Shown here one piece after another: positions 8,546 to 39,935 of a stretch of 41,597 nucleotides of DNA (positions within the stretch are counted from its first letter, which is position 1; each line of letters opens with the position of its first letter). A program made the translations under genes and the position numbers. The DNA lies in the IMG/VR virus record IMGVR_UViG_3300049225_000423, positions 1 through 41,597 of that record; one strand, written 5' to 3'. This DNA comes from a virus. The notes beneath the pieces are model-generated. The model searched no databases and was not told where the DNA came from. It saw only the letters and a program-made list of their open reading frames with translations.

Positions 8546-9673
8546 ATGGCAAATTGGAAAAAGGTAGTAGTTAGTGGATCAAATGCAGAATTAGCACAGT
8601 TATCCCTATCAAATTTATCAACACAGGGGAGTGAGGAAACTGTATTAGTAATTAGTCCTGCTGGAGTAGTTGGTACTAGAGAAAATGCTGCAAGTTCTGG
8701 CTCTTCCGGTTCAAGTGGCTCATCAGGTACTTCAGGAAATTCAGGTTCATCAGGAACTTCAGGTTCAAGTGGCTCTTCGGGTTCATCAGGTACTTCAGGA
8801 AATTCTGGTTCATCTGGTACAAGTGGTTCATCTGGTTCTTCAGGTTCATCAGGAACTTCAGGAGCATCAGGATCATCAGGAACTTCAGGTAGTTCTGGAT
8901 CATCTGGTTCAAGTGGTTCATCAGGAACTTCAGGAGCATCTGGTTCATCAGGAACTTCCGGTTCAAGTGGTTCATCTGGCTCTTCAGGCTCTTCAGGTAC
9001 ATCAGGAGCATCTGGTTCTTCGGGAACATCAGGTTCATCTGGAACATCAGGTTCAAGTGGTTCTTCGGGAAGTTCAGGTTCTTCAGGTACTTCAGGAACA
9101 TCAGGTTCATCTGGTACAAGTGGTTCATCTGGTTCTTCAGGTTCATCAGGTAGTAGTGGAACAAGTGGTGTAATCAATGTACAAAACTCGGGAAATAATA
9201 GAATACTTACTGACATAGATGGTACTAGTGCTAATGCTGAACAAAGATTAACATTTGTTAGTGATGGAGGATCAGAACCAAACACAGGTTTATTAACTGT
9301 AACTGGTGATGTTATCATATCAAATGATTTATTTGTTGATGGTACTGCTTCATTTAGAAACACTGAAAACTTATTAGTTAAAGATAGATTTATATTACTT
9401 GGGTCAGGTTCAACAACTGTTGGAGATGGTGGTATTGTTATACAACAAACTGAACAGGATTTTGGAGATGCTTTTGCTTATGATGGTTTATCTACTGGAA
9501 GATGGGGTGTAACTAGTTCATTTGATGCTAGTTTATCTTCATATACTCCAGATGCATTTATGGCTGCTGTAGTAGTAGGAACTACTAATGATCCAGATGA
9601 TGCCCCATCTAAATATGATAAAGAAGGAAATATATTTGTAGCAAGTAACGAAGATATTTATATTTATTCGTAA
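8546..9673 (+). CDS. Collagen-like (Gly-Ser-Ser)n repeat fibre protein, short paralogue
   Basis: This 375-residue protein has three parts. Residues 1-50 (MANWKKVVVSGSNAELAQLS and onward) form an N-terminal module shared with the giant fibre at 10201. Residues 52-208 are Gly-X-Y triplets, almost all GSS with GTS, GNS and GAS variants and no proline. Residues 209-375 are a beta-rich domain with LFVDGTASF, LLVKDRFILLGSGS and GDGGIVIQQ, a pattern of marine phage fibre proteins. The protein is probably a trimer anchored by the N-terminal module. The Ser/Thr-rich repeat is a candidate substrate for the glycosyltransferases downstream. Antisense frames over the repeat have no stops only because of the repeat composition. 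Confidence 0.8.
   Translation: MANWKKVVVSGSNAELAQLSLSNLSTQGSEETVLVISPAGVVGTRENAASSGSSGSSGSSGTSGNSGSSGTSGSSGSSGSSGTSGNSGSSGTSGSSGSSGSSGTSGASGSSGTSGSSGSSGSSGSSGTSGASGSSGTSGSSGSSGSSGSSGTSGASGSSGTSGSSGTSGSSGSSGSSGSSGTSGTSGSSGTSGSSGSSGSSGSSGTSGVINVQNSGNNRILTDIDGTSANAEQRLTFVSDGGSEPNTGLLTVTGDVIISNDLFVDGTASFRNTENLLVKDRFILLGSGSTTVGDGGIVIQQTEQDFGDAFAYDGLSTGRWGVTSSFDASLSSYTPDAFMAAVVVGTTNDPDDAPSKYDKEGNIFVASNEDIYIYS
8699..9169 (+). repeat. In-frame (GSS/GTS/GNS/GAS)n triplet repeat
   Basis: 9-base and longer units encode Gly-Ser-Ser-type triplets. Serine codons vary freely between AGT, TCA, TCT, TCC and TCG, so the protein repeat is far more regular than the DNA. Confidence 0.95.
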
Positions 9674-10200: not shown

Positions 10201-13200
10201 ATGCCAAATTGGAAAAAAGTAGTACTTAGTGGAAGTAACGCTGAGCTAAATGAACTTAAATTAACAGGTCTTTCTACCCAAGGATCTGAAAACACAACAC
10301 TTGTAATTAATAGTGCCGGAGAAGTAGGTACAAGAGAAAATGCAGCATCCTCTGGTTCAAGTGGATCATCAGGTTCAAGTGGATCAAGTGGTTCTTCAGG
10401 ATCATCAGGTACTTCTGGTTCTAGTGGTTCTTCAGGCTCAAGTGGTTCTTCGGGTTCATCAGGTACTTCAGGTGTAAATGGAGGTACAATAGCAAGATTT
10501 AATGGATATGATGATGGTACTTTAAATACTACTAACTTTTCTACAGTTAATACAACAGCTTTTGTAAAGGTATCACATACCCAGTATGGTTTAGACCCTT
10601 CTATTAATACAAATTATTATACCCATACTAATGATAGTGATACAATTACTATTGATAATGATGGTTATTATATAATTAGTTCTAATGTTAATTTTTTAGT
10701 AGCAAATAGAGGTTCCTTAAGATCATCTATGCAGCAAAACCTTTTAATTAATGGTACAGCTGTTGACTCTTCTAAATCAGATACTTACTCAAGAGGTAGT
10801 GGTTATAATGATGAAGTTAATACATTAACAACACTATATGCTTACTTAAGTGCTAATGACACAGTAAAAATTGAAGTTGATGCTCATAAAATGGACACCT
10901 CAGGTACTGGGAGTGTTACTATACAAGATGCAGTAATTAATATTGCATTTATAACTGGAACAGCCGCTGCTGCTGGTAATGATGGTTCATCAGGTACTTC
11001 TGGTAGTTCAGGTTCAAGCGGTTCATCAGGATCAAGTGGTACATCAGGTAATGATGGTGATGATGGTTCATCTGGTACTTCTGGTTCTTCAGGTTCAAGT
11101 GGCTCTTCAGGTTCATCAGGTAACTCGGGATCATCAGGAACTTCAGGTAGTTCTGGATCATCTGGTTCTAGTGGCTCTTCAGGTAACTCAGGATCCTCAG
11201 GAACTTCAGGTTCAAGTGGTTCAAGTGGTTCATCAGGATCAAGTGGCTCCTCGGGTAACTCAGGTTCATCAGGAACATCTGGTTCTTCTGGTTCTAGTGG
11301 TTCTTCAGGATCATCAGGATCATCAGGTTCATCAGGTAACTCAGGTTCATCAGGAACTTCAGGTTCAAGTGGCTCATCAGGTTCTAGTGGTTCATCAGGA
11401 AATTCAGGTTCATCAGGAACTTCAGGATCATCCGGTAGTTCAGGCTCAAGTGGCTCAAGTGGTTCATCAGGCTCAAGTGGCACATCAGGTAATGATGGTG
11501 ATGATGGTTCATCTGGTACTTCCGGTTCTAGTGGCTCTTCAGGTTCTAGTGGCTCTTCAGGTTCAAGTGGCTCAAGTGGTTCATCAGGTTCCTCTGGTAC
11601 ATCTGGGCAAGATGGTAATTTTGGGGGTGCATCATTTGATTATACTTTTAGTACTTCTACTACAATTACAAATCCTGGAGGGGGCAATATAAGATTAAAC
11701 AACTCAACCCAATTTTCAGCTACATCAATGGCGATTAGTGAGGTTGATGACCAAGGGGAAAGTATTCAAAGTTTCTTACAAACAGTAGATAGTTCAACAT
11801 CAGCTGTAAAAGGTCACGTTAGATTATCTGATAAAGATGATGCAGGTGATTTTCTTTTATTTGCAATATCTGATTTAACAGACAATGGAGCTTGGTGGAC
11901 AATTAATATTAGTAATGAAGCATATGGGGGTAATAGTTTAACTAATGGTGAAGATATTATAGCATCGTTTGTAGTAACGGGTGATAAGGGTGATAGTGGC
12001 TCCAGTGGTACATCTGGTTCATCGGGCTCAAGTGGATCTTCAGGCTCAAGTGGTTCTTCAGGTTCTTCAGGTAACTCAGGCTCATCAGGAACTTCAGGTT
12101 CAAGTGGTTCTTCAGGTTCTTCAGGTTCATCAGGTTCAAGTGGAAATTCGGGCTCATCAGGAACATCAGGCTCTTCGGGTAGTTCAGGCTCTTCAGGCTC
12201 AAGTGGCTCTTCAGGTAACTCAGGTTCATCAGGAACTTCAGGATCATCAGGTAGTTCAGGCTCAAGTGGCTCCAGTGGCTCTTCAGGTACATCTGGTAAC
12301 TCAGGCTCATCAGGAACTTCAGGCTCATCAGGTAGTTCAGGTTCATCCGGTAGTTCAGGCTCAAGTGGTTCATCAGGAACTTCAGGATCATCAGGTTCTT
12401 CAGGCTCAAGTGGTTCTTCAGGTTCTTCAGGTAACTCAGGATCATCAGGAACTTCAGGCTCAAGTGGTTCTTCAGGTTCTTCAGGTTCATCAGGTTCAAG
12501 TGGTTCTTCAGGCAACTCAGGTTCATCAGGAACTTCAGGCTCAAGTGGCTCTTCGGGATCAAGTGGCTCATCAGGTTCTAGTGGTTCATCAGGAAATTCA
12601 GGTTCATCTGGTACATCAGGCTCTAGTGGCTCATCAGGTACTAGTGGATTATTGTCTTTAACAGGAACTACAAACAATGGTATAATTACTTATGATAGTA
12701 CAACGGGAGGTGGTAATGTAGAAGTTAATGTTACAGCTACTGCTGCAACATTCTGTTCACAAACCACTGCTTTTAATGTAACAGCCCAAGGTGCTAATTT
12801 CTGTACAGATCAATCAATTTTTGGTTGTAATAATAACTTTGGTAAAATAATTATTGCAGATGATTATTATGGGGGTGAATTAGCTATACTGACTGATAAT
12901 GATTATATCATTGGAGGACAAGTAGCTAATTGTGAAATGTCATATGCAGGAGTTGATCCATATAATGGAACTATAAAAGCTAATTTCCAAAATAGAACTG
13001 TTTGTCTAGGATGTACAAATTGTCATATTGTTGGAAGTAGTTATTCAACAATTGCAGGTGGAGTTTGTAATAAAAGTAATGGTTTAAATTCTTTTATTGG
13101 AGCAGGTATTCTAAATACATCATCAGCAGCTGATAGTTTTATAGGTGCAGGAAAGAACAATGAAATTACTGGTGTATGCGCAGCAATAGTAGGTGGTGAA

Positions 13201-14865
13201 GGTAATGAAAATGCTAGTATTAGAGGGTTTATAGGTGCGGGTAATGGAAATTCATTATTTACTAATGGTAGTGTAATAGTAGGAGGTAAAGGTAATTTTT
13301 CAAAAGGAGGAGATGCTTTTGACTTTATAGGAGGGGGTTTTAACAATTGTATAATTCCTTCCCTAAGTACTGCTTGTGGTAATGTTATTGTTGGTGGTAT
13401 GTGTAATAATAATACTAATGACTCCCATGTTTCATTCCTAGGAGGGGGTTTAGAAAATTGTACTAACGCCTTTGCTCAAGTTATTGGTGGAGGTACGAAT
13501 AATACTCCATTTGGAGAATATGATGTTATTGTAGGGGGTAAAGGAGGTTATTCAAAAGGAGGTAATTATTCTTTTATAGGTGGAGGTGCAGGTAATTTTA
13601 TAGAAACTGCTGGTTGCTCAGTTGTTGTTGGTGGTGAAACAAACTGTATAACAAATGGTATTTATTCAACTATTGGAGGTGGTCAAGGAAATAAAATCGA
13701 GTCAAACAGAGGATTTATAGGAGGAGGAGCTAGTAATAGAATTTGTACTAATTCTCATTGTAGTACTATTGGGGGAGGTTATTCTAATGAAATTGGTGCA
13801 AGCGATTGTTGGGGAACCATTGCTGGTGGATGTGATAATTCAGTCCAACAAGATTATGGTACTGTTGCAGGAGGTCGTCAAAACTGTGCAAGGGGTTCCT
13901 ATTCAACTGTTGGTGGTGGTTATAGTAATGACTCATCAAATCAATATAGTGTAACAGCTGGAGGACGTGACAACTGCTCCAATGGTAACTACTCCAGTAT
14001 TGGTGGTGGGTATGATAATTATGTTTCTAACACTTATGGTACAGTAGCTGGCGGTTATGGTAACTGTGCTAGAGGTGCTTGTAGTTCTGTTGGAGGAGGA
14101 TTTAGTAATGATACTCAAGGAACAGCCTCTCCTATTGGTGGAGGAAATGATAACACAATTTCCTCAGGAATTTCTCAAGCTGTTATTGCAGGGGGTGGTA
14201 AAAATACTGTCTCTGCTAATGGTGGGGCAATATTAGGAGGATGTTCAAATACTGTTTCATCAGGTCAAGGATTTATAGGGAGTGGGTGTGCAAATACAAA
14301 TAATGGTTGTATGAGTGGTATCATATCAGGAAAAAATAATAATATAAATAGCAAAACCTGTTCCTTTATTATTGGTACCGATATTACAGCTTTATCAAAT
14401 TGTACTACTTTTGTAAATAATTTTGCTTTCCATGCACATAATAATCAAACACCATATTTAGGAACTGCTGCTACCGCAGGTGAATTAATTTATATAGGTT
14501 CTTCAAGTGTGACAGCAGGAAATCTTTATTATTTATTAGAACCAGTATCAGGTACATCTTCATGGACCTTAGCGGATGCAGACGCAGCTTCTTCTTCAAC
14601 AAATATGCTCGCAATAGCTGCGGGAACTGGAAATTCAAATGCTGTAGGTATGATGATAAGAGGATTTGCTAGATTTACTTCAGTATTCAATCTTACAGGA
14701 GGAACTATAGGTCAACCATTATATGTTCATACAACAGCAGGAGCAATTACTCAAACTGCTCCTTCGGGAACAGGAGATGTTGTAAGAGTAGTAGGACATT
14801 TAATTGATGATTCTACTGAAGTAATTTACTTTAACCCAGATGGAGCTTGGGTAGAAATATCTTAA
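10201..14865 (+). CDS. Giant modular fibre: (Gly-Ser-Ser)n repeats, C1q-like domain, Cys-rich beta-roll, receptor-type C-terminus
   Basis: This is a 1554-residue mosaic. Residues 1-50 are the N-terminal module shared with the 8546 protein. GSS triplet tracts are at 52-91, 259-472 and 594-816. Residues 92-258 look like a C1q/TNF-type jelly roll (TITIDNDGYYIISSNVNFL, NLLINGT, VTIQDAVINIAFI). Residues 473-593 are a domain typical of phage collagen-like proteins (TNPGGGNIRLNN, then WWTINISN, leading to GDKGDSG). About 940-1395 is a YadA-head-like beta-roll of IGGG-x2-N and AGG-x2-N repeats with unusually many Cys. About 1415-1554 is the common fibre C-terminus (GQPLYVHTTAG, TGDVVRVVGH, IYFNPDGAWVEIS). 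It is probably the main trimeric adhesin and a candidate glycosylation substrate. Confidence 0.88.
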   Translation: MPNWKKVVLSGSNAELNELKLTGLSTQGSENTTLVINSAGEVGTRENAASSGSSGSSGSSGSSGSSGSSGTSGSSGSSGSSGSSGSSGTSGVNGGTIARFNGYDDGTLNTTNFSTVNTTAFVKVSHTQYGLDPSINTNYYTHTNDSDTITIDNDGYYIISSNVNFLVANRGSLRSSMQQNLLINGTAVDSSKSDTYSRGSGYNDEVNTLTTLYAYLSANDTVKIEVDAHKMDTSGTGSVTIQDAVINIAFITGTAAAAGNDGSSGTSGSSGSSGSSGSSGTSGNDGDDGSSGTSGSSGSSGSSGSSGNSGSSGTSGSSGSSGSSGSSGNSGSSGTSGSSGSSGSSGSSGSSGNSGSSGTSGSSGSSGSSGSSGSSGSSGNSGSSGTSGSSGSSGSSGSSGNSGSSGTSGSSGSSGSSGSSGSSGSSGTSGNDGDDGSSGTSGSSGSSGSSGSSGSSGSSGSSGSSGTSGQDGNFGGASFDYTFSTSTTITNPGGGNIRLNNSTQFSATSMAISEVDDQGESIQSFLQTVDSSTSAVKGHVRLSDKDDAGDFLLFAISDLTDNGAWWTINISNEAYGGNSLTNGEDIIASFVVTGDKGDSGSSGTSGSSGSSGSSGSSGSSGSSGNSGSSGTSGSSGSSGSSGSSGSSGNSGSSGTSGSSGSSGSSGSSGSSGNSGSSGTSGSSGSSGSSGSSGSSGTSGNSGSSGTSGSSGSSGSSGSSGSSGSSGTSGSSGSSGSSGSSGSSGNSGSSGTSGSSGSSGSSGSSGSSGSSGNSGSSGTSGSSGSSGSSGSSGSSGSSGNSGSSGTSGSSGSSGTSGLLSLTGTTNNGIITYDSTTGGGNVEVNVTATAATFCSQTTAFNVTAQGANFCTDQSIFGCNNNFGKIIIADDYYGGELAILTDNDYIIGGQVANCEMSYAGVDPYNGTIKANFQNRTVCLGCTNCHIVGSSYSTIAGGVCNKSNGLNSFIGAGILNTSSAADSFIGAGKNNEITGVCAAIVGGEGNENASIRGFIGAGNGNSLFTNGSVIVGGKGNFSKGGDAFDFIGGGFNNCIIPSLSTACGNVIVGGMCNNNTNDSHVSFLGGGLENCTNAFAQVIGGGTNNTPFGEYDVIVGGKGGYSKGGNYSFIGGGAGNFIETAGCSVVVGGETNCITNGIYSTIGGGQGNKIESNRGFIGGGASNRICTNSHCSTIGGGYSNEIGASDCWGTIAGGCDNSVQQDYGTVAGGRQNCARGSYSTVGGGYSNDSSNQYSVTAGGRDNCSNGNYSSIGGGYDNYVSNTYGTVAGGYGNCARGACSSVGGGFSNDTQGTASPIGGGNDNTISSGISQAVIAGGGKNTVSANGGAILGGCSNTVSSGQGFIGSGCANTNNGCMSGIISGKNNNINSKTCSFIIGTDITALSNCTTFVNNFAFHAHNNQTPYLGTAATAGELIYIGSSSVTAGNLYYLLEPVSGTSSWTLADADAASSSTNMLAIAAGTGNSNAVGMMIRGFARFTSVFNLTGGTIGQPLYVHTTAGAITQTAPSGTGDVVRVVGHLIDDSTEVIYFNPDGAWVEIS
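10354..10473 (+). repeat. First (GSS)n tract of the giant fibre
   Basis: These are Gly-Ser-Ser/Gly-Thr-Ser triplets directly after the N-terminal module, encoding residues 52-91. No proline is present. Confidence 0.95.
10975..11616 (+). repeat. Second (GSS)n tract of the giant fibre
   Basis: This encodes residues 259-472. It is mostly GSS with spaced GTS and GNS, and twice has the interruption GNDGDDG, as in phage collagen-like proteins. A higher-order unit of about ten triplets (GNS-GSS-GTS-GSS...) recurs. Confidence 0.95.
11980..12648 (+). repeat. Third (GSS)n tract of the giant fibre
   Basis: This encodes residues 594-816. It opens with GDKGDSG, the classic entry into phage collagen-like repeats, and then has higher-order GNSGSSGTSG units separated by runs of GSS. 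Confidence 0.95.
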
Positions 14866-14875
14866 AAATAATTTT

Positions 14876-15541
14876 ATGGCAGGATTTGACACAGGATATA
14901 AAGAAAGATCTCTTACTTTCGAAAGTGATAAAATTAAATATTCTAAAGACGGTAAAGAGTTTAACGTAATGATGGATTGGGAAACCCCAATCATGAAAAG
15001 ATCTGCCGAATGGGTTACTAATGGAGGTAGAGCAGAAAGCGTATTAGAATTAGGTTTTGGTATGGGTATATCAGCAGGATTTATACAAAACTTCCAACCA
15101 GACCAACATACAATAATAGAATTGCACCCAAATATAGTAGAACGAGCAGAAGAATATGCTACTCAAAGAAATAAGTATTATAGTAGGTCCAAAGCAACAG
15201 CTCATAAAAGAGTAACTATTTTAGGAGGTAAAAACTGGTATGATGAATTTGGAAAATCTTTTGAAAAATCAGGTTTACAGGAATTTGATGCTATTTTTAT
15301 AGATACTTATCAAGATACAAAGTTACATGAATTTAAAAACTATATCACTAAAATGTTAAAAAAAGGAGGCAGAATGACTTGGTGGAATCCAATGGAAGAT
15401 TTCATTCCAGACGAAACTACTAAAAATAGAAGAGGAGTTAGCTATGAATTAATTAGATTAAGTGATCATAAAATTAAGATTCCACAAAATGCATACCATA
15501 ATACAGATAAGTATTATATGCCAATGTATATAAGACAATAA
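14876..15541 (+). CDS. SAM-dependent methyltransferase of the GAMT/RMT2 type
   Basis: This 221-residue class I methyltransferase has MMDWETPIMKRSAEWVT, motif I VLELGFGMGIS (about 56-66), an IIELHPNIVERAEEYA segment (about 80-95), and FDAIFIDTYQ (about 137-146) followed by a KKGG turn. The same set of motifs (MMDWE, GFGMGI, IIEAHP, FDxIFxDT) characterises guanidinoacetate N-methyltransferase and the yeast arginine methyltransferase Rmt2. The gene lies ten bases downstream of the giant fibre and shares its transcript, which suggests a virion or fibre-related target. The real substrate is unknown, and a protein side-chain or a small guanidino compound are both possible. Confidence 0.8.
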   Translation: MAGFDTGYKERSLTFESDKIKYSKDGKEFNVMMDWETPIMKRSAEWVTNGGRAESVLELGFGMGISAGFIQNFQPDQHTIIELHPNIVERAEEYATQRNKYYSRSKATAHKRVTILGGKNWYDEFGKSFEKSGLQEFDAIFIDTYQDTKLHEFKNYITKMLKKGGRMTWWNPMEDFIPDETTKNRRGVSYELIRLSDHKIKIPQNAYHNTDKYYMPMYIRQ

Positions 15542-16285: not shown

Positions 16286-17515
16286 ATGAATAATAAAATT
16301 AGTTGTACTATTGTATCTATTATTATAGGTAGAGAGTTTTCTATAGATAAACTCCTAGACTATTTTTGTAAACTAACCATACCTAATCAAATAAGTCATC
16401 TTAATTTAAATTTAGTTCTAGGTTGTAGTAATAATTTTACAAAACAACTTAAAAGTAAAATTAAAGAACTAAACCTATCTGACAAATATAATAAAATATC
16501 TTTTATAGAAGGTAATAGAAGGTGTCACCCTGATTTAAACTGGGAAGAATGGGAACAATATACCCGCAAAAAAGACACGCTTGTTAAACATGATTCTGCT
16601 CTACAAAATATAAATATAGGATTGCAATCGGTAGTAGATGGAGATTTTATCCACTTTGTAGATGATGATACCATTCCACCTTATTTTGCTTTACAAGATC
16701 TTTTTAATGCTTATCATAAAATAGAAAATTGCGGGATAGCAAGCGGAATTTATTTTAATAAAGAATGGTTAGGACCTACTATGGTTACAGAATATCATGA
16801 GACAAAAAGACGTATAGTAGCAAGCGTAAGAAAAGATAAATGGATAGAAACCTCTATAGATGACCTAACATATACAGATTATACAGATATAGGATTTACA
16901 GGAAATGGGTGTATGTTAATTTCAGTAGAGGATACTAAACAAATTTTACCTTTAACAGAAAATAGAGATTATTTTGATACTGATGCCCCCCCTGATTCTA
17001 AAATATGTTATAGAATAAGATTATTAGGGAAAAAAATAAGTATAGTTCCTTCTATAGTTTGTAAGCATTTAGATGGTAAAGGAAAACCAGTGGGGTTGTC
17101 AGAAAAATATTTAAAAAATATTAAAAATTCTGGTAAACCTAAAAAAATTCTTTTTATAAACTTTAATCCTTATGTAAATTATAAAAAACTAAGTTTAAAA
17201 TATGATTATACTATTGTATTAGCATTTGAAGAATTAATTAAGTCTAAAGATATAAATAAATTTAAAAAACTAATAGATTTTGATAATATTAAATTTATAA
17301 AAAAAAGTATAATTAATACAGTAAATAAATATCCCTTAGATTTTAAAATTAAACATGAGTTTAATATATTACTTACTTTACAAGAAATATACTCATATAT
17401 TAGTGATAAAAGTGAATATAAAATTTATTCCCACAGAACCAAACAAAATGATATAAATTTAGTAGCTACATTAGATAGTTCTAAATTAAGAAATTTATTA
17501 AATACAAAAATATAA
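16286..17515 (+). CDS. Glycosyltransferase, GT-A fold (GT2-like)
   Basis: This 409-residue protein has an N-terminal Rossmann-like strand (ISCTIVSIIIGREFS), a nucleotide-sugar/metal motif FVDDDTIPP (about 124-132), a central IGFTGNGCMLI acceptor region, and ICYRIRLLGKKISIVPSIVCKHL (about 243-265), typical of family 2 enzymes. The last about 130 residues are Lys/Ile-rich and not recognised. It opens the glycosyltransferase block and has its own non-late promoter motif. Donor and acceptor are unknown. In context it could extend a glycan begun by the heptosyltransferases. Confidence 0.75.
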   Translation: MNNKISCTIVSIIIGREFSIDKLLDYFCKLTIPNQISHLNLNLVLGCSNNFTKQLKSKIKELNLSDKYNKISFIEGNRRCHPDLNWEEWEQYTRKKDTLVKHDSALQNINIGLQSVVDGDFIHFVDDDTIPPYFALQDLFNAYHKIENCGIASGIYFNKEWLGPTMVTEYHETKRRIVASVRKDKWIETSIDDLTYTDYTDIGFTGNGCMLISVEDTKQILPLTENRDYFDTDAPPDSKICYRIRLLGKKISIVPSIVCKHLDGKGKPVGLSEKYLKNIKNSGKPKKILFINFNPYVNYKKLSLKYDYTIVLAFEELIKSKDINKFKKLIDFDNIKFIKKSIINTVNKYPLDFKIKHEFNILLTLQEIYSYISDKSEYKIYSHRTKQNDINLVATLDSSKLRNLLNTKI

Positions 17516-17823: not shown

Positions 17824-18135
17824 ATGCAACATACTTGGTCAATAACTAATTTAGAAAGAAACTTAAATACTGGTTTAATTACAACAGCTTCATACTCTTG
17901 TAACACAACTTGTTCAGGGTCTATGCAAAGAAATGTAGGGGAATCCTCACTCCCTTACAAATCTCCATCAAATCCAGATTTTGTAGCTTATGAAGATTTA
18001 ACAGAAGAAATGGTACTTACTTGGGTAACAGGAAGTATAGATTATTCAGCTATAGAAACATCCAACTCAGCTTCGGTTGCAGAACAAATTAATTATGAAC
18101 AAAGTAAAACCACGGATGATGGTGTTCCTTGGTAA
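17824..18135 (+). CDS. Conserved small phage protein ending in GVPW
   Basis: This 103-residue protein starts MQHTWSITNLERNLNTGLITTASYSC and contains YEDLTEEMVLTWVTGSIDYSAIE and a C-terminal GVPW. The pattern W-x-I-xx-LER, beta strands, DLTE-xx-V-xx-WV and a final G-(L/V)-PW is shared by a widespread family of small T4-like marine phage proteins of unknown function, which I recognise from memory. It has a composite promoter of its own. Confidence 0.6.
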   Translation: MQHTWSITNLERNLNTGLITTASYSCNTTCSGSMQRNVGESSLPYKSPSNPDFVAYEDLTEEMVLTWVTGSIDYSAIETSNSASVAEQINYEQSKTTDDGVPW

Positions 18136-18175: not shown

Positions 18176-19048
18176 ATGAACATAATATTCCAGATAGATG
18201 GAGGTTTAGGTAAATCTATTATGGCAACAGCCATGGTGCAGGTTATAAAGAAACGATATAAAAATTCTAATTTAATAGTTGTAACTGCTTACCCTGATGT
18301 ATTCTTAAACAACCCCCAGGTTAATAAAATATATAGACCTGAACAAATGAATGGGGCTTATCTTAAATATATTAAAGATCAGGATTGTAAAATTTTTATA
18401 GAAGATCCTTATCGCAATAATTCTTTTTTAACAGACAAAGAACATTTGTTTAAAACTTGGTGTAAAATTTATGGGTTACATTATAATAATGAACAACCCA
18501 AAATCTATTTAACACAACCCGAGTTAGATTATTTTTCTCCTTTTTATAAATTAGATAAACCTATTTTAGCCATACAAACAAATGGAGGACCTCAAGGTCA
18601 AGGTTTTCAATATTCATGGACAAGAGACATACCAGAACCTACTGTATTAAATGTTATTGATTATTATAAAAATGATTATACAATTATTCATATTAAAAGA
18701 AAAGACCAATATACCTATCCTGATACAATGCAAGCTTTAGATGGTTTTAGAAGTATTGCTATCTTACTTCAAATGTCTTCTAAGCGTTTATTAATAGATT
18801 CATTTTCTCAACATTTAGCAACAGCTATGAATATGAAATCCACTGTATGCTGGGTAGCTACTAAACCTAAAGTGTTTGGATATGAAATGCATGATAATAT
18901 CTTAGCAGAACCTTTTACAAAAGAACCAACATTACAAAACTCAGTTTATCAACCTTTTAATTTGGCACAAGATATCCACTCTATACCTTATAATAATTTA
19001 AGTGAAGTATTTGATGTAAATAAAATTATAACATCACTTAATAATTAA
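18176..19048 (+). CDS. GT9-like (heptosyltransferase-fold) glycosyltransferase with altered catalytic loop
   Basis: This 290-residue GT-B-type protein starts MNIIFQIDGGLGKSIMATAMVQVIKKRY, then has VVTAYPDVFLNNPQVNKIY (about 36-54), the N-terminal pattern of GT9 heptosyltransferases. It later has LQMSSKRLLIDSFSQHLATAMN (about 200-221), equivalent to the nucleotide-binding region. At the position of the GT9 catalytic Asp (S-L-G-D) it has Lys13 (GGLGK), so it may be inactive, use another base, or be a divergent subgroup. It precedes the large fusion enzyme by 51 nt and is part of the same block. Confidence 0.65.
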   Translation: MNIIFQIDGGLGKSIMATAMVQVIKKRYKNSNLIVVTAYPDVFLNNPQVNKIYRPEQMNGAYLKYIKDQDCKIFIEDPYRNNSFLTDKEHLFKTWCKIYGLHYNNEQPKIYLTQPELDYFSPFYKLDKPILAIQTNGGPQGQGFQYSWTRDIPEPTVLNVIDYYKNDYTIIHIKRKDQYTYPDTMQALDGFRSIAILLQMSSKRLLIDSFSQHLATAMNMKSTVCWVATKPKVFGYEMHDNILAEPFTKEPTLQNSVYQPFNLAQDIHSIPYNNLSEVFDVNKIITSLNN

Positions 19049-19099: not shown

Positions 19100-21373
19100 A
19101 TGATAAAAACACCTAAAATATTTGCACATGGTAGTTATGTAGGAACTACAGGTTATGCTAATCATACAAGAGCATTTTATAGAGAACTTTCTAATCTTTA
19201 TAACTTAAAAATAAGAAATTTTACAGTAGGTAAATCATGGGATGGCTATAAAGATGAACCCCATAACGGGGAAGAATATTTTGATGGGTTAGATAAAAAA
19301 TTACTTACTTCACAATATTTGTGGGAAGATGATAATTTAATTCATAAAGATATTTATACTAAATATCCTAATAATTTTGATCATAATGTCAATTTAGTTT
19401 TGTGTGAAACAAACCACCATGTATTTTACCAAGATTATCAAGGTCCAAAAATAGCTTATAATGTATGGGAAACAACTCGTCAACCTAAAACATTTTTTGA
19501 TCAATTATCTACATTTGATCAAGTTTGGGTTGCTTCTAAATGGCAAAGAGACTGTACTATTGAACAAGGAATCTCTCCAGATAAAGTAAAGGTTATTCCT
19601 GAAGCAGTAGATTCTACTATTTTTCACCCAAATAAAAAGGCTACACTTCCTGAATATGACGACGGGAGGTTTAAATTTACAATGTTTGGTCGGTGGGATT
19701 ATAGAAAATCTACTAAAGAGGTTATTGAGTCTTTTTTAGAAGAATTCGGTAAAGATGAACCCGTAGATTTAATATTATCTATAGACAATCATATGGCTAA
19801 GGATGATTTTGAATCTACTGAAGAAAGACTTAAACATTATGGTTTAGTTGACCCAAGATTAAAAATAAAACATTTCCCAACAAGAGAAGAATATATTAAG
19901 TACTTGCAAAAAGGTCATGTATTTTTATCTTGTGCTCGTGCTGAGGGATGGAATTTACCTTTAATTGAAGCAATGGCTTGTGGTACCCCTTCTATTTATT
20001 CAAATTGTAGTGCTCAATTAGAATTTGCAGAAGGTAAAGGATTGCCCGTAAAAATTAAAGGAACCATTCCTGCAATAGGAGGAGAATATAGTACATTTTC
20101 CCAATCTGATTTACCAGGGGAATTTTATTCACCTGATTTTAATGATTTAAAAAGAGTAATGAGGGATGCTTATGTTAATTATAAACAACATAAAAAACAA
20201 GCAATAAAAGAATCAGTTGAAATAAGAAAAAAGTTTACTTGGGAAAATGCCGCCCAAATAGCTAAAAAAGAAATAGATTATTTAGTAAATAATATACCTC
20301 CTAATAATATTGAAATTAGTTTTAATGAAGGTCCTAAAGTAGAAATTAAAGGGTCTAATTTTGAAAAGTACAAAGTAGAATTTATAAATGGAGAGACAAA
20401 TGAAATAATTCATTCTTCTACTATTACTAATAATATGTGGGCTAAATGTAATAAATCTTATTTTATTCCCTGGGTTATCAAATTAAATGGTAAAGTAATT
20501 CATAAATTAGATCTTAAAGATAAAAACGTAAAAATAACTTTAGATTCAAAATCAATTGGTGACACAATAGCATGGACCCCTCAAGTTATAGAATTTGCTA
20601 AAAAACATCAATGTAAAGTTATAGTTAGTACCTTTCATAACAATTGGTTTAAAAACCTCCCAGAATATAAAAATATTAAATTTATCAAACCTGGGGAATC
20701 TTGTTCTGCCTATGCTCAATATAAAATAGGATGGTTTAAAAATTTAGATGGTAATTTTAAAAATTTTGATGATCACCCAACTCAACCAAATACAATTCCT
20801 TTGATACAAACATCAACTGATATTTTAGGGTTAGAATATAAAGAACTTAATTATGGGGTTGATTTTAACATTGGTGAAAAACCTATCCAAGGAAAATATG
20901 TAGTATTTGGTCCTCAATCAACATCGGGGTGTAAAGAATGGACTTATGATAATTGGGTTGAATTAGCTAAAATGTTTAAAAATAAAAACTACCAAGTAGT
21001 TATACTTTCTTCAACCCCATATACTATCCCAGGTACAACTAATATTCAAGGTAGACCATTAGATACAGTAGCTACTTATTTAACTTATGCTGATAAATTT
21101 ATTGGATTAGGATCAGGTTTATCATGGTTAAATTGGGCTTTAAAAAAACATACAATTATGATTAATGGGTTTAGTGAAAGAGATCATGAATTTACTTCTT
21201 ATATTACTCGTGTAATGAATGATAATGCATGTATTCCTTGTTGGACTAATCCTAATTTTACATTTGATCCTGGAGATTGGGATTGGTGTCCTATTTGGAA
21301 AGGAACAAATAAACAGCATATTTGTCAAAAATCTATTACCCCTACTCAAGTATTCAATTCAAGTAACATATGA
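19100..21373 (+). CDS. Fusion glycosyltransferase: GT4 domain + TibC/Aah-type autotransporter O-heptosyltransferase
   Basis: This 757-residue protein has two enzymes in one chain. Residues 1-400 form a GT4-type GT-B domain with IPEAVDSTIFHP (about 167-178), FGRWDYRKS (about 195) and the E-x7-E motif EGWNLPLIEAMACGTPS (284-300). Residues 402-757 match the autotransporter strand-loop-strand O-heptosyltransferase family, with NNMWAKCNKSYFIPWVIKL, GDTIAW (Asp488 in the conserved loop), VIVSTFHNNWF, PLIQTSTDILGLEY, FIGLGSGLSWLNWAL and GDWDWCP. The iron-finger cysteines are Cys711, 714, 730 and 742. TibC uses ADP-heptose to modify Ser in repeat proteins. It overlaps the next gene by ATGA. Confidence 0.87.
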   Translation: MIKTPKIFAHGSYVGTTGYANHTRAFYRELSNLYNLKIRNFTVGKSWDGYKDEPHNGEEYFDGLDKKLLTSQYLWEDDNLIHKDIYTKYPNNFDHNVNLVLCETNHHVFYQDYQGPKIAYNVWETTRQPKTFFDQLSTFDQVWVASKWQRDCTIEQGISPDKVKVIPEAVDSTIFHPNKKATLPEYDDGRFKFTMFGRWDYRKSTKEVIESFLEEFGKDEPVDLILSIDNHMAKDDFESTEERLKHYGLVDPRLKIKHFPTREEYIKYLQKGHVFLSCARAEGWNLPLIEAMACGTPSIYSNCSAQLEFAEGKGLPVKIKGTIPAIGGEYSTFSQSDLPGEFYSPDFNDLKRVMRDAYVNYKQHKKQAIKESVEIRKKFTWENAAQIAKKEIDYLVNNIPPNNIEISFNEGPKVEIKGSNFEKYKVEFINGETNEIIHSSTITNNMWAKCNKSYFIPWVIKLNGKVIHKLDLKDKNVKITLDSKSIGDTIAWTPQVIEFAKKHQCKVIVSTFHNNWFKNLPEYKNIKFIKPGESCSAYAQYKIGWFKNLDGNFKNFDDHPTQPNTIPLIQTSTDILGLEYKELNYGVDFNIGEKPIQGKYVVFGPQSTSGCKEWTYDNWVELAKMFKNKNYQVVILSSTPYTIPGTTNIQGRPLDTVATYLTYADKFIGLGSGLSWLNWALKKHTIMINGFSERDHEFTSYITRVMNDNACIPCWTNPNFTFDPGDWDWCPIWKGTNKQHICQKSITPTQVFNSSNI

Positions 21374-22254
21374 GGAGAAAAGTTTTAGTTAATATATTAT
21401 CAAATTCCTTAGGGGATACAATTATAGCTATTCCCTATATAAATCAATATAGGTTAGATCAAAATTGTGATGTTTATGTTAAAGTAAATCCTAAGTTTCA
21501 ATTTTTATTTAAAGAATCTTACCCAAACTTAAATTTAACAAATACAACAGAAGGATTTGAGGAAATAATTCCAGTAGATTATAATTTTAAAACTAATATT
21601 CAAGAAGGGTTTGCTTTAGATTTAGGTTATAAAAAATGGAATTACATTCAACCTAAATTAAATATTACCCCTAAAAAACGTCCCATAAAAGGAAAATATG
21701 TTGTTATAAGTGTGCATTCTACTTCACAATTAAAATATTGGAATCACCCTAAAGGAAAAAGTGTACAGGGTACTCCTCTTTATTGGACTGAATTGTGTAG
21801 AATATTAAGAAAAAAAGGTTTTACTCCTGTAGTAGTAGAACGTGACGAATTATTTGGGTTAGCCCCTTATTGGAACGGGCTACCAAAAAAGTCTAATAAT
21901 AAAACACAAGTATCTTTAGAAGATACTGTTAATTATATACAACATGCCGAATTTTTTATAGGACTATCATCAGGTTTAACTTGGTTAGCTCATGCCCTAG
22001 AAAAAAAAGTAGTAATGATATCTAATTTTACAGAAGATTGGCATGAAATTCCTTTAGATTATCCTAATTATAAACGAATTACCAATAAATCAGTATGTCA
22101 TGGATGTTTTAACAAAGTAGGAATTGAGCATAACTTTGATTTTGGAGATTGGTATTGGTGTCCTAAACATAAAAATACACCACGCCAATTTGAATGTCAT
22201 ACTTCAATAACCCCAAATATGGTTATAGAACAAATAGATGATTGGTTAGAGTAA
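21370..22254 (+). CDS. TibC/Aah-type protein O-heptosyltransferase, free-standing
   Basis: This 294-residue protein has VNILSNSLGDTIIAIPYI (Asp16 in the catalytic loop), VVISVHSTSQLKYWNHPKGKS, LEDTVNYIQHAEFFIGLSSGLTWLAHAL and GDWYWCP. Four cysteines (243, 246, 264, 276) have the spacing of the iron finger of autotransporter heptosyltransferases. It is shorter than TibC because it lacks the N-terminal beta-rich thumb. The ATG overlaps the stop of the fusion enzyme (ATGA), so the two are translationally coupled. It likely transfers heptose to a protein acceptor. The Ser-rich phage fibres are the obvious candidates. Confidence 0.87.
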   Translation: MRRKVLVNILSNSLGDTIIAIPYINQYRLDQNCDVYVKVNPKFQFLFKESYPNLNLTNTTEGFEEIIPVDYNFKTNIQEGFALDLGYKKWNYIQPKLNITPKKRPIKGKYVVISVHSTSQLKYWNHPKGKSVQGTPLYWTELCRILRKKGFTPVVVERDELFGLAPYWNGLPKKSNNKTQVSLEDTVNYIQHAEFFIGLSSGLTWLAHALEKKVVMISNFTEDWHEIPLDYPNYKRITNKSVCHGCFNKVGIEHNFDFGDWYWCPKHKNTPRQFECHTSITPNMVIEQIDDWLE

Positions 22255-22626: not shown

Positions 22627-25296
22627 ATGGCAGAAACATTAATATCTCCAGGTGTAATAGCAAGAGAAAACGATCAATCTTTTGTTACTTCACAGCCCAT
22701 TGAAAGAGGTGCGGCAATTATAGGACCAACTGTAATTGGTCCTGTAGAAAGACCAACTCTAATTAGTTCATTTAGTTCATACCAAGCATTATTTGGTGGG
22801 GCTCTATTAAGTGGTTCTAACGAGTACACATATCTTACTTCTATTGCAGCAAACCAATATTTTCAAAATGGTGGGACTTCACTTTTAGTAACAAGAGTAA
22901 CTTCGGGATCTTTTAGCTCAGCTACTTCTACAACAATTCAAAATAATTTAGAATCTCCAACTGGTGGATTAATTGGAAATATCTTTAGTGGATATAAAAC
23001 CTCAACAGGTGGAGGTAGTGGTTCATCAGCCCCTGGAACTTATACAAATGTTCCATTAGTAACAGATACAGGAGCTGGATCAAGCGCTGAAGTAACAGTA
23101 ACAACTAGTAATAGTAATGGTATTTTATTTACTGGTACTCCTTTTACCTCCATAATTGTACAATCAGGTTCAAATATGGTAGCTGGACCATATACTGATG
23201 TATCAGGTACTGGTGGAGATGGAACAGGTGCATTATGGGATATTACAGTTAGTACAGGAGATACATTTTTACCCGGAGCTGAAGTAACAGCTGGTGGTAC
23301 TACAATTACTGGGGTTACTCCTTCTACAACTACTACAAACATTAACGTATCTGATTTAATTTCAAATGGTGGTAGTGTTTCAGGTGGTGGATCTGGAGGT
23401 GTAGTAACCGTAACCAGTGATGGTGCAGGCGAAATTACAAAAATTACACTAGTATCTGGAGGATCTAGTTATACAAATACTTCAGTTATTAATGTTACGG
23501 CTGCAGGTATTAATGCTTTAGCAGGCGCTCCTTTAGGATCAGGTGCTGCAGGTGGTGCTGCAACATTTTCTATCCAAAATGCTGATTTAGCAGGAACAAT
23601 TAACGCAGGTGATATTACACTAGATGCTGGTAATACTACTTTAGGGTCAGGATATAAAGTTGGAGATCAAATCTCAATCCCAGCTACAAGTTTAGGTGCT
23701 TCAAGTGGAGATGCTCTTATTTTCCAAATCACCCAACCTCAAATATTAACTGAGATTTCAGGTGTTTCAATCACAGAAGATGGATTAGGTTATGCAGATG
23801 GTGATGAAGTAAGTATTGCAAGTGGGACAGCTGGTGTATTTTCAACAGATCCCGTTTTTGTGTTAACTGATGCAATGATTGAAAATCAAACAGCTTTTGT
23901 ATTAGAAACAATTTCTGAAGGTGAAATTATGAATAATACATACCCTGCTGGGTCTGATACAAGTGGTCTTGAAATAGCAGGTGGAGCTTTAACTAGTGGT
24001 TCATCTCTTAACGTAAGATGGGAAATTACAAGTGTTAATACATCTTCAGGTGTATTTTCATTAGCTATTAGAAGAGGTAATGATAATACTAATAATAAAG
24101 TAGTATTAGAAACATATAATAATATTTCATTAGATCCATTTTCTCCAAATTATATTTCAAGAGCAATTGGTGATATATCTACTAATCTAGTAACAGAAGG
24201 AGTAGATACCTTTTTACAAGAATCAGGTTCATTTGCGCAAATTTCTAACTATGTTAGAGTAAGACAAGTAAATACCCCAACACCAAACTATTTTAATAAT
24301 GATGGAACTGCAAAATCTGAATATACAGCTTCTTTACCTATTATAGGATCAGGTTCATTTGATGGAGCTGTTGGTAGAAATATTCCTGTAGGAAGAGCAG
24401 CTAATTTTTATCAAGATATTAATAATATTGATACTCAAGGATTAATAGGATCCGATTATAATAATGCAATTGCTTTATTATCTAGTCAAGATGATTACCA
24501 GTACAATGTACTATCAGTACCTGGTTTAACTAATCAAGACCATGCGGGTCAAATCACTACTGTAATGAATAATTCAATTACACGAGGTGATAATATTGCA
24601 GTAATTGATCTAGTAAGATATAACCAACCAATTGCTACAGTAACAAACCAAGCAGGAGGTATTGATAATAGCTATACAGCTACCTATTGGCCATGGTTAC
24701 AAACAGTTGATCCAAATTCTGGTCAATTAGTTTATATACCTGCTTCTACGTTTATACCAGGAGTATATGCGTTTACAGATGCTTCAAGTGATCCATGGTT
24801 TGCACCCGCAGGTATTACTAGAGGTGGAATGGGACAAGTTGTTCGAGCTGAAAGAAAATTAACTTCTAATAATAGAGATACTTTATATGAAGCAAATGTT
24901 AATCCAATTGCTACATTCCCACAACAAGGAGTAGTAGTATTTGGACAGAAAACATTACAAAAAGCTGCTTCTGCATTAGATAGAGTAAATGTACGTAGAT
25001 TATTAATTACACTTAAAGAATATATTTCTCAAATTGCAGATAATTTAGTATTTGAAGCTAATACAATTGCAACTAGACAAAATTTCTTAACCCAAGTTAA
25101 CCCATATCTAGAATCAGTACAACAAAGACAAGGATTATATGCTTTTAAAGTAGTAATGGATGAAACAAACAATACACCAGATGTAATAGATAGAAATGAG
25201 TTAGTAGGACAAATTTTCTTACAACCAACTAGAACAGCTGAATTTATTATGTTAGATTTCAATGTATTACCAACTGGAGCAACTTTTCCAGCATAA
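22627..25296 (+). CDS. 18: Tail sheath protein gp18 with a large surface insertion
   Basis: The 889-residue product has the family N-terminus (LISPGVIARENDQSFV, then GAAIIGPTVIGPVERPTLISSF and the ANQYFQNGGTSLLVTRV region). Its C-terminus is also typical (NVRRLLITLKEYISQIADNLVFE, RQNFL, LVGQIFLQPTRTAEFIMLDFN). It forms the contractile sheath. T4 gp18 has 659 residues. The excess is a Gly/Ser/Thr-rich beta insertion at about 117-425 with a repeated Y-x(2-4)-GD-x-(V/I)-x-I unit (SGYKVGDQISIPA, LGYADGDEVSIAS), presumably on the outer surface of the tail. Confidence 0.95.
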   Translation: MAETLISPGVIARENDQSFVTSQPIERGAAIIGPTVIGPVERPTLISSFSSYQALFGGALLSGSNEYTYLTSIAANQYFQNGGTSLLVTRVTSGSFSSATSTTIQNNLESPTGGLIGNIFSGYKTSTGGGSGSSAPGTYTNVPLVTDTGAGSSAEVTVTTSNSNGILFTGTPFTSIIVQSGSNMVAGPYTDVSGTGGDGTGALWDITVSTGDTFLPGAEVTAGGTTITGVTPSTTTTNINVSDLISNGGSVSGGGSGGVVTVTSDGAGEITKITLVSGGSSYTNTSVINVTAAGINALAGAPLGSGAAGGAATFSIQNADLAGTINAGDITLDAGNTTLGSGYKVGDQISIPATSLGASSGDALIFQITQPQILTEISGVSITEDGLGYADGDEVSIASGTAGVFSTDPVFVLTDAMIENQTAFVLETISEGEIMNNTYPAGSDTSGLEIAGGALTSGSSLNVRWEITSVNTSSGVFSLAIRRGNDNTNNKVVLETYNNISLDPFSPNYISRAIGDISTNLVTEGVDTFLQESGSFAQISNYVRVRQVNTPTPNYFNNDGTAKSEYTASLPIIGSGSFDGAVGRNIPVGRAANFYQDINNIDTQGLIGSDYNNAIALLSSQDDYQYNVLSVPGLTNQDHAGQITTVMNNSITRGDNIAVIDLVRYNQPIATVTNQAGGIDNSYTATYWPWLQTVDPNSGQLVYIPASTFIPGVYAFTDASSDPWFAPAGITRGGMGQVVRAERKLTSNNRDTLYEANVNPIATFPQQGVVVFGQKTLQKAASALDRVNVRRLLITLKEYISQIADNLVFEANTIATRQNFLTQVNPYLESVQQRQGLYAFKVVMDETNNTPDVIDRNELVGQIFLQPTRTAEFIMLDFNVLPTGATFPA

Positions 25297-38106: not shown

Positions 38107-38499
38107 ATGAAAATTTGGGTAAATGGTTGTTTTGATATTCTTCATAGAGGACATTTTGAATTATTTAATTTTGCAAAATCATTAGGTGATATATTAATCG
38201 TTGGGATAGATTCTGATGAAAAAATAGCTAGTGATAAAGGTCCTAATAGACCCTACAATAATCTAGAAGATAGGGTTTATGCTTTAGAAAGTTTAAAAGC
38301 TATAGATAAAGTAATGGTCTTCGATAATCGTGAACATTTAGAATGGTTAGTATCTTCTGTTTCTCCTGATATTATAGTAGTAGGAAGTGATTGGAAAGGT
38401 AAAGAAATAGTAGGAGGAGATCATGCTCGAGAAATTATATATTTTGATCGTATAGGTAATTATTCAACAACAGACATTTTATTAAATGAGAGAAAGTAA
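38107..38499 (+). CDS. hldC: Heptose-1-phosphate adenylyltransferase-like (HldC / RfaE domain II)
   Basis: This 130-residue nucleotidyltransferase has VNGCFDILHRGHFELFNFAKSLGD (about 4-27, with the HxGH motif as HRGH), LIVGIDSD, GPNRPYNNLEDRVYALESL, DIIVVGSDWKG and a C-terminal YSTTDIL. This corresponds closely to the C-terminal domain of HldE (NGVFDILHAGH, SRPVNPLEQR, STTNII). It would join D-glycero-D-manno-heptose-1-phosphate to AMP, giving ADP-heptose; CDP- or GDP-linked products cannot be ruled out. It is the first gene of a four-gene overlapping cassette. Confidence 0.83.
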   Translation: MKIWVNGCFDILHRGHFELFNFAKSLGDILIVGIDSDEKIASDKGPNRPYNNLEDRVYALESLKAIDKVMVFDNREHLEWLVSSVSPDIIVVGSDWKGKEIVGGDHAREIIYFDRIGNYSTTDILLNERK

Positions 38500-38836
38500 A
38501 TTACACTCAGAAGGACAGCAAAAAGCTTTTGTTGATATAGATGAAACGATATGTTTTTATAAAGATAAAAGGATATATGAGTTAGCTATCCCTAATAAAA
38601 CAAATATTAATAAAATTAACAAACTTAAAGAAAAAGGATGGCATATAACTTACTATACTGCCAGAGGAGGCGCAAGCAAAATTGATTATACTAAATTAAC
38701 TTTAAAACAATTAAAAGAATGGGGATGTTTTTTTGATGATCTTGTGGTGGGTTATAGAAAAGATATTACATTACCAGTAAAACCATCTTATGATCTAATT
38801 ATAGATGATAAGGCAAAACGTATAGAAGAATTATGA
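38486..38836 (+). CDS. HAD-superfamily phosphatase, candidate heptose-bisphosphate phosphatase step
   Basis: This 116-residue minimal HAD protein has the nucleophile motif FVDIDETI (about 15-22), a motif-II-like YYTARGG (about 57-63), a Lys in VVGYRKDITLPVKPSYD, and the acidic LIIDDK (about 105-110). The DxDxT start and C-terminal DD identify a phosphatase or related HAD enzyme. GmhB, the phosphatase of ADP-heptose synthesis, is also a HAD enzyme, so a role there fits the neighbours but is inferred. It overlaps the preceding gene by 14 nt and the next by 4 (ATGA). Confidence 0.72.
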   Translation: MRESKLHSEGQQKAFVDIDETICFYKDKRIYELAIPNKTNINKINKLKEKGWHITYYTARGGASKIDYTKLTLKQLKEWGCFFDDLVVGYRKDITLPVKPSYDLIIDDKAKRIEEL

Positions 38837-39195
38837 TTATACAACCTAAAATAGTACAAAAAGGGTGGGGTGAAGAAGTTTGGATCCATAATGATGAAGA
38901 ATATTGTGGTAAACTACTTAGATTTTTTAAAGCAGGGAATAAATTTTCTTTACATTACCATATTATTAAAAAAGAATCATGGTATGTAGGTAAAGGTAGT
39001 TTTGAATATATTAAATTAGATACTGAAAAAGGAATAGAACATAGTACTATCATTAAAGAAGGAACTTGTTTAACAATTGAAAGAGGATCCCCACATCAAT
39101 TAATAGCCTTAGAAGATATGTCAGAAATATTTGAAGTATCTACCCAACATTTTGACGAAGATAGTTATAGAATTAGAATAGGAAATACGTTATGA
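38833..39195 (+). CDS. Cupin-fold protein (sugar isomerase/epimerase-like)
   Basis: This 120-residue cupin begins MIIQPKIVQKGWGEEVWIHNDEEYCGKLLRFFKAG, continues SLHYHIIKKESWYVGKGSFEY (the His-x-His...Glu metal motif and G-x6-G turn, about 36-56), and has a second box GSPHQLIAL. It resembles cupins of the mannose-6-phosphate isomerase type 2 group that often accompany nucleotide-sugar genes. It is coupled to both neighbours by ATGA overlaps. Its reaction is unknown. It might act on heptose phosphates. Confidence 0.7.
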   Translation: MIIQPKIVQKGWGEEVWIHNDEEYCGKLLRFFKAGNKFSLHYHIIKKESWYVGKGSFEYIKLDTEKGIEHSTIIKEGTCLTIERGSPHQLIALEDMSEIFEVSTQHFDEDSYRIRIGNTL

Positions 39196-39935
39196 GAATA
39201 TTAGTAATAGGCGATAGTTGTCTTGATAAGTTTATTTATGGTGAATGTAATCGAATATGCCCTGAAGCACCCGTTCCTGTATTTAATCCTATTAATTCTA
39301 CTAAAAATGAAGGAATGGCTAAAAATGTTTTTAATAATTTAAAAAGTTTAGCCCCAAATTGGGAAATTGATTTTATTACAAATCAATCCCCAGCAGTAAA
39401 AACCCGATTAGTAGATATAAAAACTAATCAAATGTTAGTTAGAATTGATGATAATGATAAATGTTCTAGATTTAGTGGGTTAAATAAGTTAGAAGAGTAT
39501 GATATTGTTATTATTAGCGATTATGATAAAGGATTTTTAACTAAAGATGATATTAAATACATTTTAGATAAATACCCTTTAACTTTTATTGATTCCAAAA
39601 AAATATTTGGAGAATGGGTTATGAATGCTTCATTTATAAAAATTAACCAACCAGAATACGAAAAAAATAAGGATAATTTAATTGATTATAAGGGTCAATT
39701 AATCGTTACACTTGGAGAAAAAGGGGTTCAGTGGGGTGATATGATACACCCCCCTTCTAGGAAAGCTGAAGTATCCGATTTATCAGGAGCTGGAGATACA
39801 TTTTTTGCTGCTTTTATATATTATTATTTATCCCACCAAAGTGTAAGTAAAAGTATACATTTCGCACAAAATTGTTCTCTTGAAGTTATAGAAAAAAAAG
39901 GTGTAGTAGTAGTAGAAAATAATTTGGATGTCTAA
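39192..39935 (+). CDS. hldA: D-glycero-D-manno-heptose-7-phosphate kinase-like (HldA / RfaE domain I, PfkB family)
   Basis: This 247-residue PfkB-type kinase begins RILVIGDSCLDKFIYGECNRICPEAPVPVF, almost the signature of HldE domain I (GDVMLDRYWYG, RISPEAPVPV). It also has GMAKNVFNNLKSL, VRIDDND, VIISDYDKGFL, and the C-terminal catalytic loop DLSGAGDTFFAAF (about 196-208). It would phosphorylate heptose-7-phosphate to the 1,7-bisphosphate. It is shorter than the usual about 310 residues, mainly in the middle, but all key motifs remain. In bacteria HldA and HldC are often fused as HldE; here they are separated by the HAD and cupin genes. Confidence 0.83.
   Translation: MRILVIGDSCLDKFIYGECNRICPEAPVPVFNPINSTKNEGMAKNVFNNLKSLAPNWEIDFITNQSPAVKTRLVDIKTNQMLVRIDDNDKCSRFSGLNKLEEYDIVIISDYDKGFLTKDDIKYILDKYPLTFIDSKKIFGEWVMNASFIKINQPEYEKNKDNLIDYKGQLIVTLGEKGVQWGDMIHPPSRKAEVSDLSGAGDTFFAAFIYYYLSHQSVSKSIHFAQNCSLEVIEKKGVVVVENNLDV

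Follow-up and report, generated by a model that had tools for sequence, protein, structure and literature searches.

What would a phage glycosylate with a single chain that joins a GT4-type enzyme to a TibC-type heptosyltransferase domain, and whose gene overlaps that of a second TibC-type protein? Such a pair is present in the 41.6 kb viral record analysed here (the window, by which we mean the whole stretch). The record comes from a T4-like myovirus; a major head protein, PhoH, tail fibres, sheath, tube and baseplate hub are recognised among its products. Among cultured phages, Flavobacterium phage immuto has the sheath closest to that of the window, which makes a Bacteroidota host likely. 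The pair and the genes around it are the following:

8546-9673, plus strand: tail-fibre protein of 375 aa with 53 Gly-(Ser/Thr)-Ser-type triplets, candidate acceptor
10201-14865, plus strand: long tail-fibre protein of 1554 aa with 163 Gly-(Ser/Thr)-Ser-type triplets, candidate acceptor
14876-15541, plus strand: methyltransferase-like protein in the cassette (PF01596, below cut-off)
16286-17515, plus strand: possible GT2-type glycosyltransferase (PF13641, E 0.04, weak)
18176-19048, plus strand: phrog_8954 protein, GT9-like by eye only (N-terminal GGLGKS-type start), no Pfam or NCBIfam support
19100-21373, plus strand: fusion of a GT4 part (aa 1-395) and a TIGR04414/TibC-type domain (aa 401-753), from Pfam, TIGR04414, motif and model
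21370-22254, plus strand: second TibC-type protein of 294 aa, without N-terminal barrel and with the thumb insertion retained, from TIGR04414, model and overlap
22627-25296, plus strand: tail sheath, conserved downstream neighbour and alternative acceptor

A DUF7936 protein is encoded at 17824-18135, among the glycosyltransferase genes, and homologs of it lie near the fusion in contigs L113 and L144.

The GT4-TibC chain and the overlapping second gene

That one chain joins a GT4-type to a TibC-like enzyme had been proposed in an initial annotation, and Pfam, TIGR04414 and structural matches all bear this out. The 757-aa product of the ORF at 19100-21373 has the features of a GT4 enzyme, namely a predicted GT-B fold, an E-x7-E motif and an above-cut-off match to Pfam group 1, with PF00534 spanning aa 188-308; the motif lies at 282-290 and not at 284-292 as first given. 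TIGR04414 (hepto_Aah_TibC), whose curated cut-off is 200 bits, matches aa 401-753 with 223 bits. The TibC_1st barrel domain at aa 401-462 reaches 21 bits with PF21129 (cut-off 27), and strands are present there in the model. The second protein scores 207 bits with TIGR04414 (curated cut-off 200), and its match starts at model position 83, so that the barrel is absent, in agreement with the earlier remark that this copy lacks the N-terminal beta-rich part. The cysteines had been numbered correctly in both proteins (Cys711/714/730/742 in the TibC part of the fusion and Cys243/246/264/276 in the second protein).

GT-B folds, whose absence had been named as grounds for rejecting the annotation, are predicted for both proteins. 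The AlphaFold models reach a mean pLDDT of 88 with a pTM of 0.69 (fusion) and of 91.6 with a pTM of 0.91 (second protein); since the former pTM is modest, the position of the two enzymes of the fusion relative to each other is only loosely predicted. TibC is the best structural match of both models (fusion: E 1.4e-25, TM 0.78 over the target; second protein: TM 0.87, rmsd 2.1), with SdgB among the matches of the fusion and GT9 LPS heptosyltransferases next in line for the second protein.

The TibC residues D110 (catalytic), T226 and K230 (phosphate-binding) and W305 (donor) are retained in both domains together with the four cysteines, whose conservation suggests an iron site. Score and catalytic residues place both in TIGR04414, with Arg286 as the exception. 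This residue, which contacts adenine and is needed in TibC (PMC4358343), is replaced by Val in the fusion and by Thr in the second protein. It also varies in bacterial TIGR04414 members above cut-off, including members beside GTS proteins, which rules out its loss as a phage-specific trait; judging from these sequences, its presence is no marker of the HMM family. The beta-hairpin thumb is absent from the fusion, and an insertion at the same position is retained in the second protein. Thumb loss is not peculiar to the fusion either, being seen in many bacterial members. Deletion of the barrel or mutation of the thumb abolishes TibC activity (PMC4358343), and as both elements are essential there, the phage chains must work somewhat differently from the TibC homododecamer.

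A frameshift artefact, the other ground for doubt raised with the initial annotation, is ruled out as the cause of the fusion by dozens of intact fusions. A TibC-domain search gathered 80 viral loci, and 36 non-redundant full-length fusions of the same GT4-TibC layout were recovered from viral contigs, with a mean column identity of 71% across 38 aligned fusions. An initial genome scan using fusion-only patterns found no relative, but a broader alignment did. Compared with the near copy L003, dN/dS is 0.05 in GT4, 0.09 in the TibC part and 0.07 in the second protein, and all three domains are under purifying selection. A phylogeny of the two heptosyltransferase domains, proposed earlier as a check, separates fusion-type and second-type TibC domains into two old clades, each supported at 100/100 on a long stem, which rules out a recent tandem duplication; on whether the two belong to one clade, the AU test gives p 0.12.

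The idea that the fusion is a compact glycan-assembly unit is supported because in relatives the chain is extended by FkbM or PIG-L modules. One chain (L025) has GT4, FkbM and TibC parts, Mel-JY01 (L098) carries GT4 and TibC parts within 1234 aa, and L143 (49-3765) and L147 (46-3768, minus strand) each encode a single chain of about 1240 aa with GT4, a TibC-type domain, an unassigned GT-like region and a C-terminal PIG-L deacetylase domain. The PIG-L module suggests that the finished glycan may contain an N-acetylhexosamine. Among 12 proteins (L142 and 11 from contigs found through the repeat described below), ten have GT4-type Pfam matches and ten have GT9 matches.

In line with the hetero-oligomer suggested in the initial annotation, the second protein could be a structural or regulatory partner in a mixed ring, giving the thumb while the fusion gives the barrel, and we regard this as a serious but minority possibility. 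The complementary losses of the two proteins would suit such a ring, as would the gene overlap. The fusion stop overlaps the ATG of the second gene, as had been described, through ATGA in the window, and a 4-nt RTGA overlap recurs in every fusion and second-protein pair seen (all seven loci examined), the second protein directly following the fusion in L003, L075/L088/L090, L085, L086 and L092/L093. A pair of a longer, barrel-containing protein (421 aa) and a barrel-less one (301 aa) is found again in the distant contig G467. Against the ring, the second protein retains the complete catalytic residue set and is present in just 5 of the 80 fusion loci, most fusions being without it. Fused and stand-alone forms, whose co-occurrence was another suggested check, do recur as pairs, yet the barrel-less type also stands on contigs without a fusion (G008 and G040, near queC, and the 202 kb G447), so pairing with the fusion is not obligate. 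In L145 and L146 a barrel-less TibC-type gene adjoins queC, with no fibre repeat on the contig; in L145 it additionally adjoins an HldD-like epimerase gene.

Gly-(Ser/Thr)-Ser repeats and TIGR04414 genes

The triplets of both fibre genes just upstream of the cassette are nearly all Gly-(Ser/Thr/Asn)-Ser. These repeat fibres, which were not part of the initial annotation, are the probable acceptor. An NCBIfam scan of seven long window proteins gave no match to autotransporter-type repeats, and in phage papers the repeat, looked for by text search, turned up as unrelated linkers only.

TIGR04414 and Gly-(Ser/Thr)-Ser repeats are linked in genomes in both directions. Of 21 viral records that carry TIGR04414, 14 have a six-triplet DNA pattern, against 0 of 13 without TIGR04414 (Fisher p 1.6e-4), the latter set being mostly cyanophages and rhizobial phages with one Flavobacterium phage, and relatedness not being fully controlled. 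The exact repeat is absent in the other 7 of the 21, including two contigs with the barrel-less type only. In the reverse direction, TIGR04414 is found above cut-off in 19 of 46 contigs of at least 30 kb picked solely for a ten-triplet repeat (21 of 48 including two known before), while 50,697 phage records include just 4 with a homolog; these two figures stem from different collections, and a p value between them is not used as a test. The idea of a link came from the window and the fetched loci, and the reverse sample and one bacterial genome (G359, below) came later. Because the repeat pattern was itself selected with the window in view, a joint chance figure that ignores this is not used either. 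At the level of single loci the reverse link is not significant (6 of 80 repeat loci versus 1 of 80 Gly-Pro-X control loci, p 0.12).

The same association is seen in cells. Five cellular genomes of 1.7-9.2 Mb (Methylomicrobium, L105; the gammaproteobacterial MAGs L109 and L114; a Schekmanbacteria MAG, L111; and a Nitrosotalea MAG, L115, whose contig may be cellular or viral) have the exact repeat solely at sites no more than about 6 kb from the TIGR04414 gene. In L107, L110 and L112, looser GTS/GTA/GTT repeats are found 25-56 bp from this gene. An independent draw of 369 genomes of one class yielded a single additional full TIGR04414 gene (G359), which again has a gene for a GTS-repeat lipoprotein at a distance of 0.5 kb.

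Bacterial TIGR04414 genes adjoin genes for small secreted proteins or lipoproteins that consist largely of GTS/GSS-type repeats, in L105, L107, L109, L110, L112, L114 and L161. Such proteins apparently constitute an unnamed partner family of bacterial TIGR04414.

Possible heptose donor and proposed target of glycosylation

Candidate heptose-nucleotide genes downstream of the pair, not mentioned in the initial annotation, overlap in an operon-like manner at 38107-39935:

38107-38499, plus strand: HldC-like nucleotidyltransferase (TIGR02199, 108 bits, cut-off 181.5)
38486-38836, plus strand: HAD-like protein, homolog of cyanophage T4-GC 306
38833-39195, plus strand: cupin protein
39192-39935, plus strand: HldA-like PfkB-type kinase (TIGR02198, 120 bits, cut-off 345)

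Heptose families are the best-scoring ones for the HldC- and HldA-like genes, which fall short of the equivalog cut-offs and are hence called 'like'. Their cyanophage homologs are annotated as heptose kinase/adenylyltransferase, and TIGR04414 is present in 6 of 15 contigs fetched through the HldA-like kinase. HldD-like epimerases lie beside the kinase in G001 and beside the second-type gene in G040. HldA and HldC matches are both absent from the larger fusion-bearing contigs G003, G004 and G005, where the donor may thus come from the host. The phage records searched yielded no GmhA-type isomerase. Given the HldA/HldC-like genes in the window, heptose is a plausible donor, though Arg286 is missing. 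The HAD-like gene at 38486-38836 is homologous to a cyanophage gene annotated as 'phosphoheptose isomerase' (T4-GC 306; L149, 11972-12283), an annotation that looks doubtful.

We propose, with a probability of roughly 0.6, that the phage O-heptosylates its own tail fibres and that the GT4 enzyme extends the glycan. The fusion and the second protein would together act as an O-glycosylation machine in the cytosol, with ADP-heptose as the probable donor, partly made by the HldA-/HldC-like enzymes of the window. The TibC-type domains would place heptose on serines of the Gly-(Ser/Thr)-Ser repeats in the two upstream fibre proteins (TibC itself acts on serine, not threonine, in protein; PMC4358343), and the fused GT4 domain would add a second sugar onto the new O-linked heptose. 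The barrel-less protein, made via translational coupling, may serve as a partner subunit or as a second transferase on the same repeats. Several observations speak against this proposal: Arg286 is replaced in both proteins, the phage records searched lack a gmhA-type isomerase, the fusion is without the thumb and the second protein without the barrel, each required in TibC, a third of the TIGR04414-bearing viral records (7 of 21) are without the exact repeat, the reverse link is weak at locus level, and the most conserved neighbour of the fusion is the sheath.

The sheath, or another virion protein, might accordingly be O-glycosylated in place of the fibre repeats, which we consider unlikely. 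A sheath gene lies downstream in 79 of 80 fusion loci at a median of 303 bp (each locus with at least 2.5 kb downstream, near-identical contigs included), an unfused TibC-type gene sits about 0.1 kb upstream of the sheath in phage contig L108, and the N-terminal third of the window sheath is S/T-rich. However, adjacency can stem from conserved phage gene order, and the Gly-(Ser/Thr)-Ser link holds too in cells without a sheath. Less likely again is that host surface glycans (LPS or capsule) are modified, for instance to exclude other phages. Glycosyltransferases and rfaE of pelagimyophages have been read that way (PMC7029224), and LPS heptosyltransferases of the GT9 type follow TibC among the structural matches of the second protein, but both domains score above the protein O-heptosyltransferase cut-off and far below the LPS heptosyltransferase cut-offs, the four cysteines of the finger are retained and the genes sit in a virion structural cluster. 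Transfer of sugars to modified bases of phage DNA seems very improbable: phage GT4-type enzymes can glycosylate DNA according to work cited in PMC12619734, and the barrel-less type adjoins queC in two contigs, but no base-modification gene was recognised beside the pair in the window, the TIGR04414 acceptor is a protein, and the repeat link would be left unexplained.

Further genes were noted around the sheath. L108 and L113, binned in bacterial MAGs (Winogradskyella; 'bacterium Cli_8'), look like phage contigs, with a TibC-type gene upstream of sheath and tube. A serine-repeat protein of the SSSYA/SSSVA type, another possible acceptor, lies between the fusion pair and the sheath in L075 (8638-9498), and the stretch between fusion and sheath in L043 (8811-10658) encodes a protein of 616 aa that has an NTP_transferase domain as well as regions which, judged by eye, resemble HAD and kinase domains.

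Relation to known glycosylation systems

Tail-fibre heptosylation would give a concrete acceptor to a widespread group of phage glycosyltransferases whose targets are commonly taken to be LPS or DNA. The family, which owes its name to autotransporters, would gain a second class of acceptors. Should this hold, tail fibres would be heavily glycosylated in many aquatic phages, with consequences for adsorption and fibre stability. We hold it to be about an even bet that TIGR04414 enzymes generally, in phages and bacteria, serve such a second class, comprising Gly-(Ser/Thr)-Ser triplet-repeat proteins (phage fibres, and secreted proteins or lipoproteins of methanotrophs and other bacteria), with the phage versions in multi-domain glycan-assembly chains fed by phage heptose-nucleotide genes. 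The class is not named in the literature searched.

SdgB and GtfA/GtfB are GT4 enzymes that glycosylate serine-repeat adhesins. The proposed phage system resembles them in the cytosolic glycosylation of long Ser repeats with a GT4 enzyme, and differs in that priming is expected from a TibC-type domain which forms part of that chain. Cyanophages (T4-GC 304/305/306) and pelagimyophages (rfaE) have genes homologous to the HldC-, HAD- and HldA-like genes of the window, although the cyanophage records are without a TibC-type match and the pelagimyophage rfaE has been read as LPS-related (PMC7029224). Glycans on virion proteins are known from mycobacteriophages, where capsid and tail tube carry them (Freeman 2023, as cited in PMC12619734); the acceptor proposed for the phage analysed here is another one. 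The closest relatives are the TibC/AAH autotransporter heptosyltransferases of bacteria (TIGR04414; PDB 4RAP and 4RB4; PMC4358343), with which the phage proteins share the predicted fold, the catalytic Asp, the phosphate-binding Thr/Lys, the donor Trp and the four cysteines of the finger, and the fusion apparently also the barrel. In contrast to these, the phage enzyme is fused to GT4, the thumb is missing from the fusion and the barrel from the second protein, Arg286 is absent, and its partner is probably a fibre with Gly-(Ser/Thr)-Ser repeats rather than an autotransporter.
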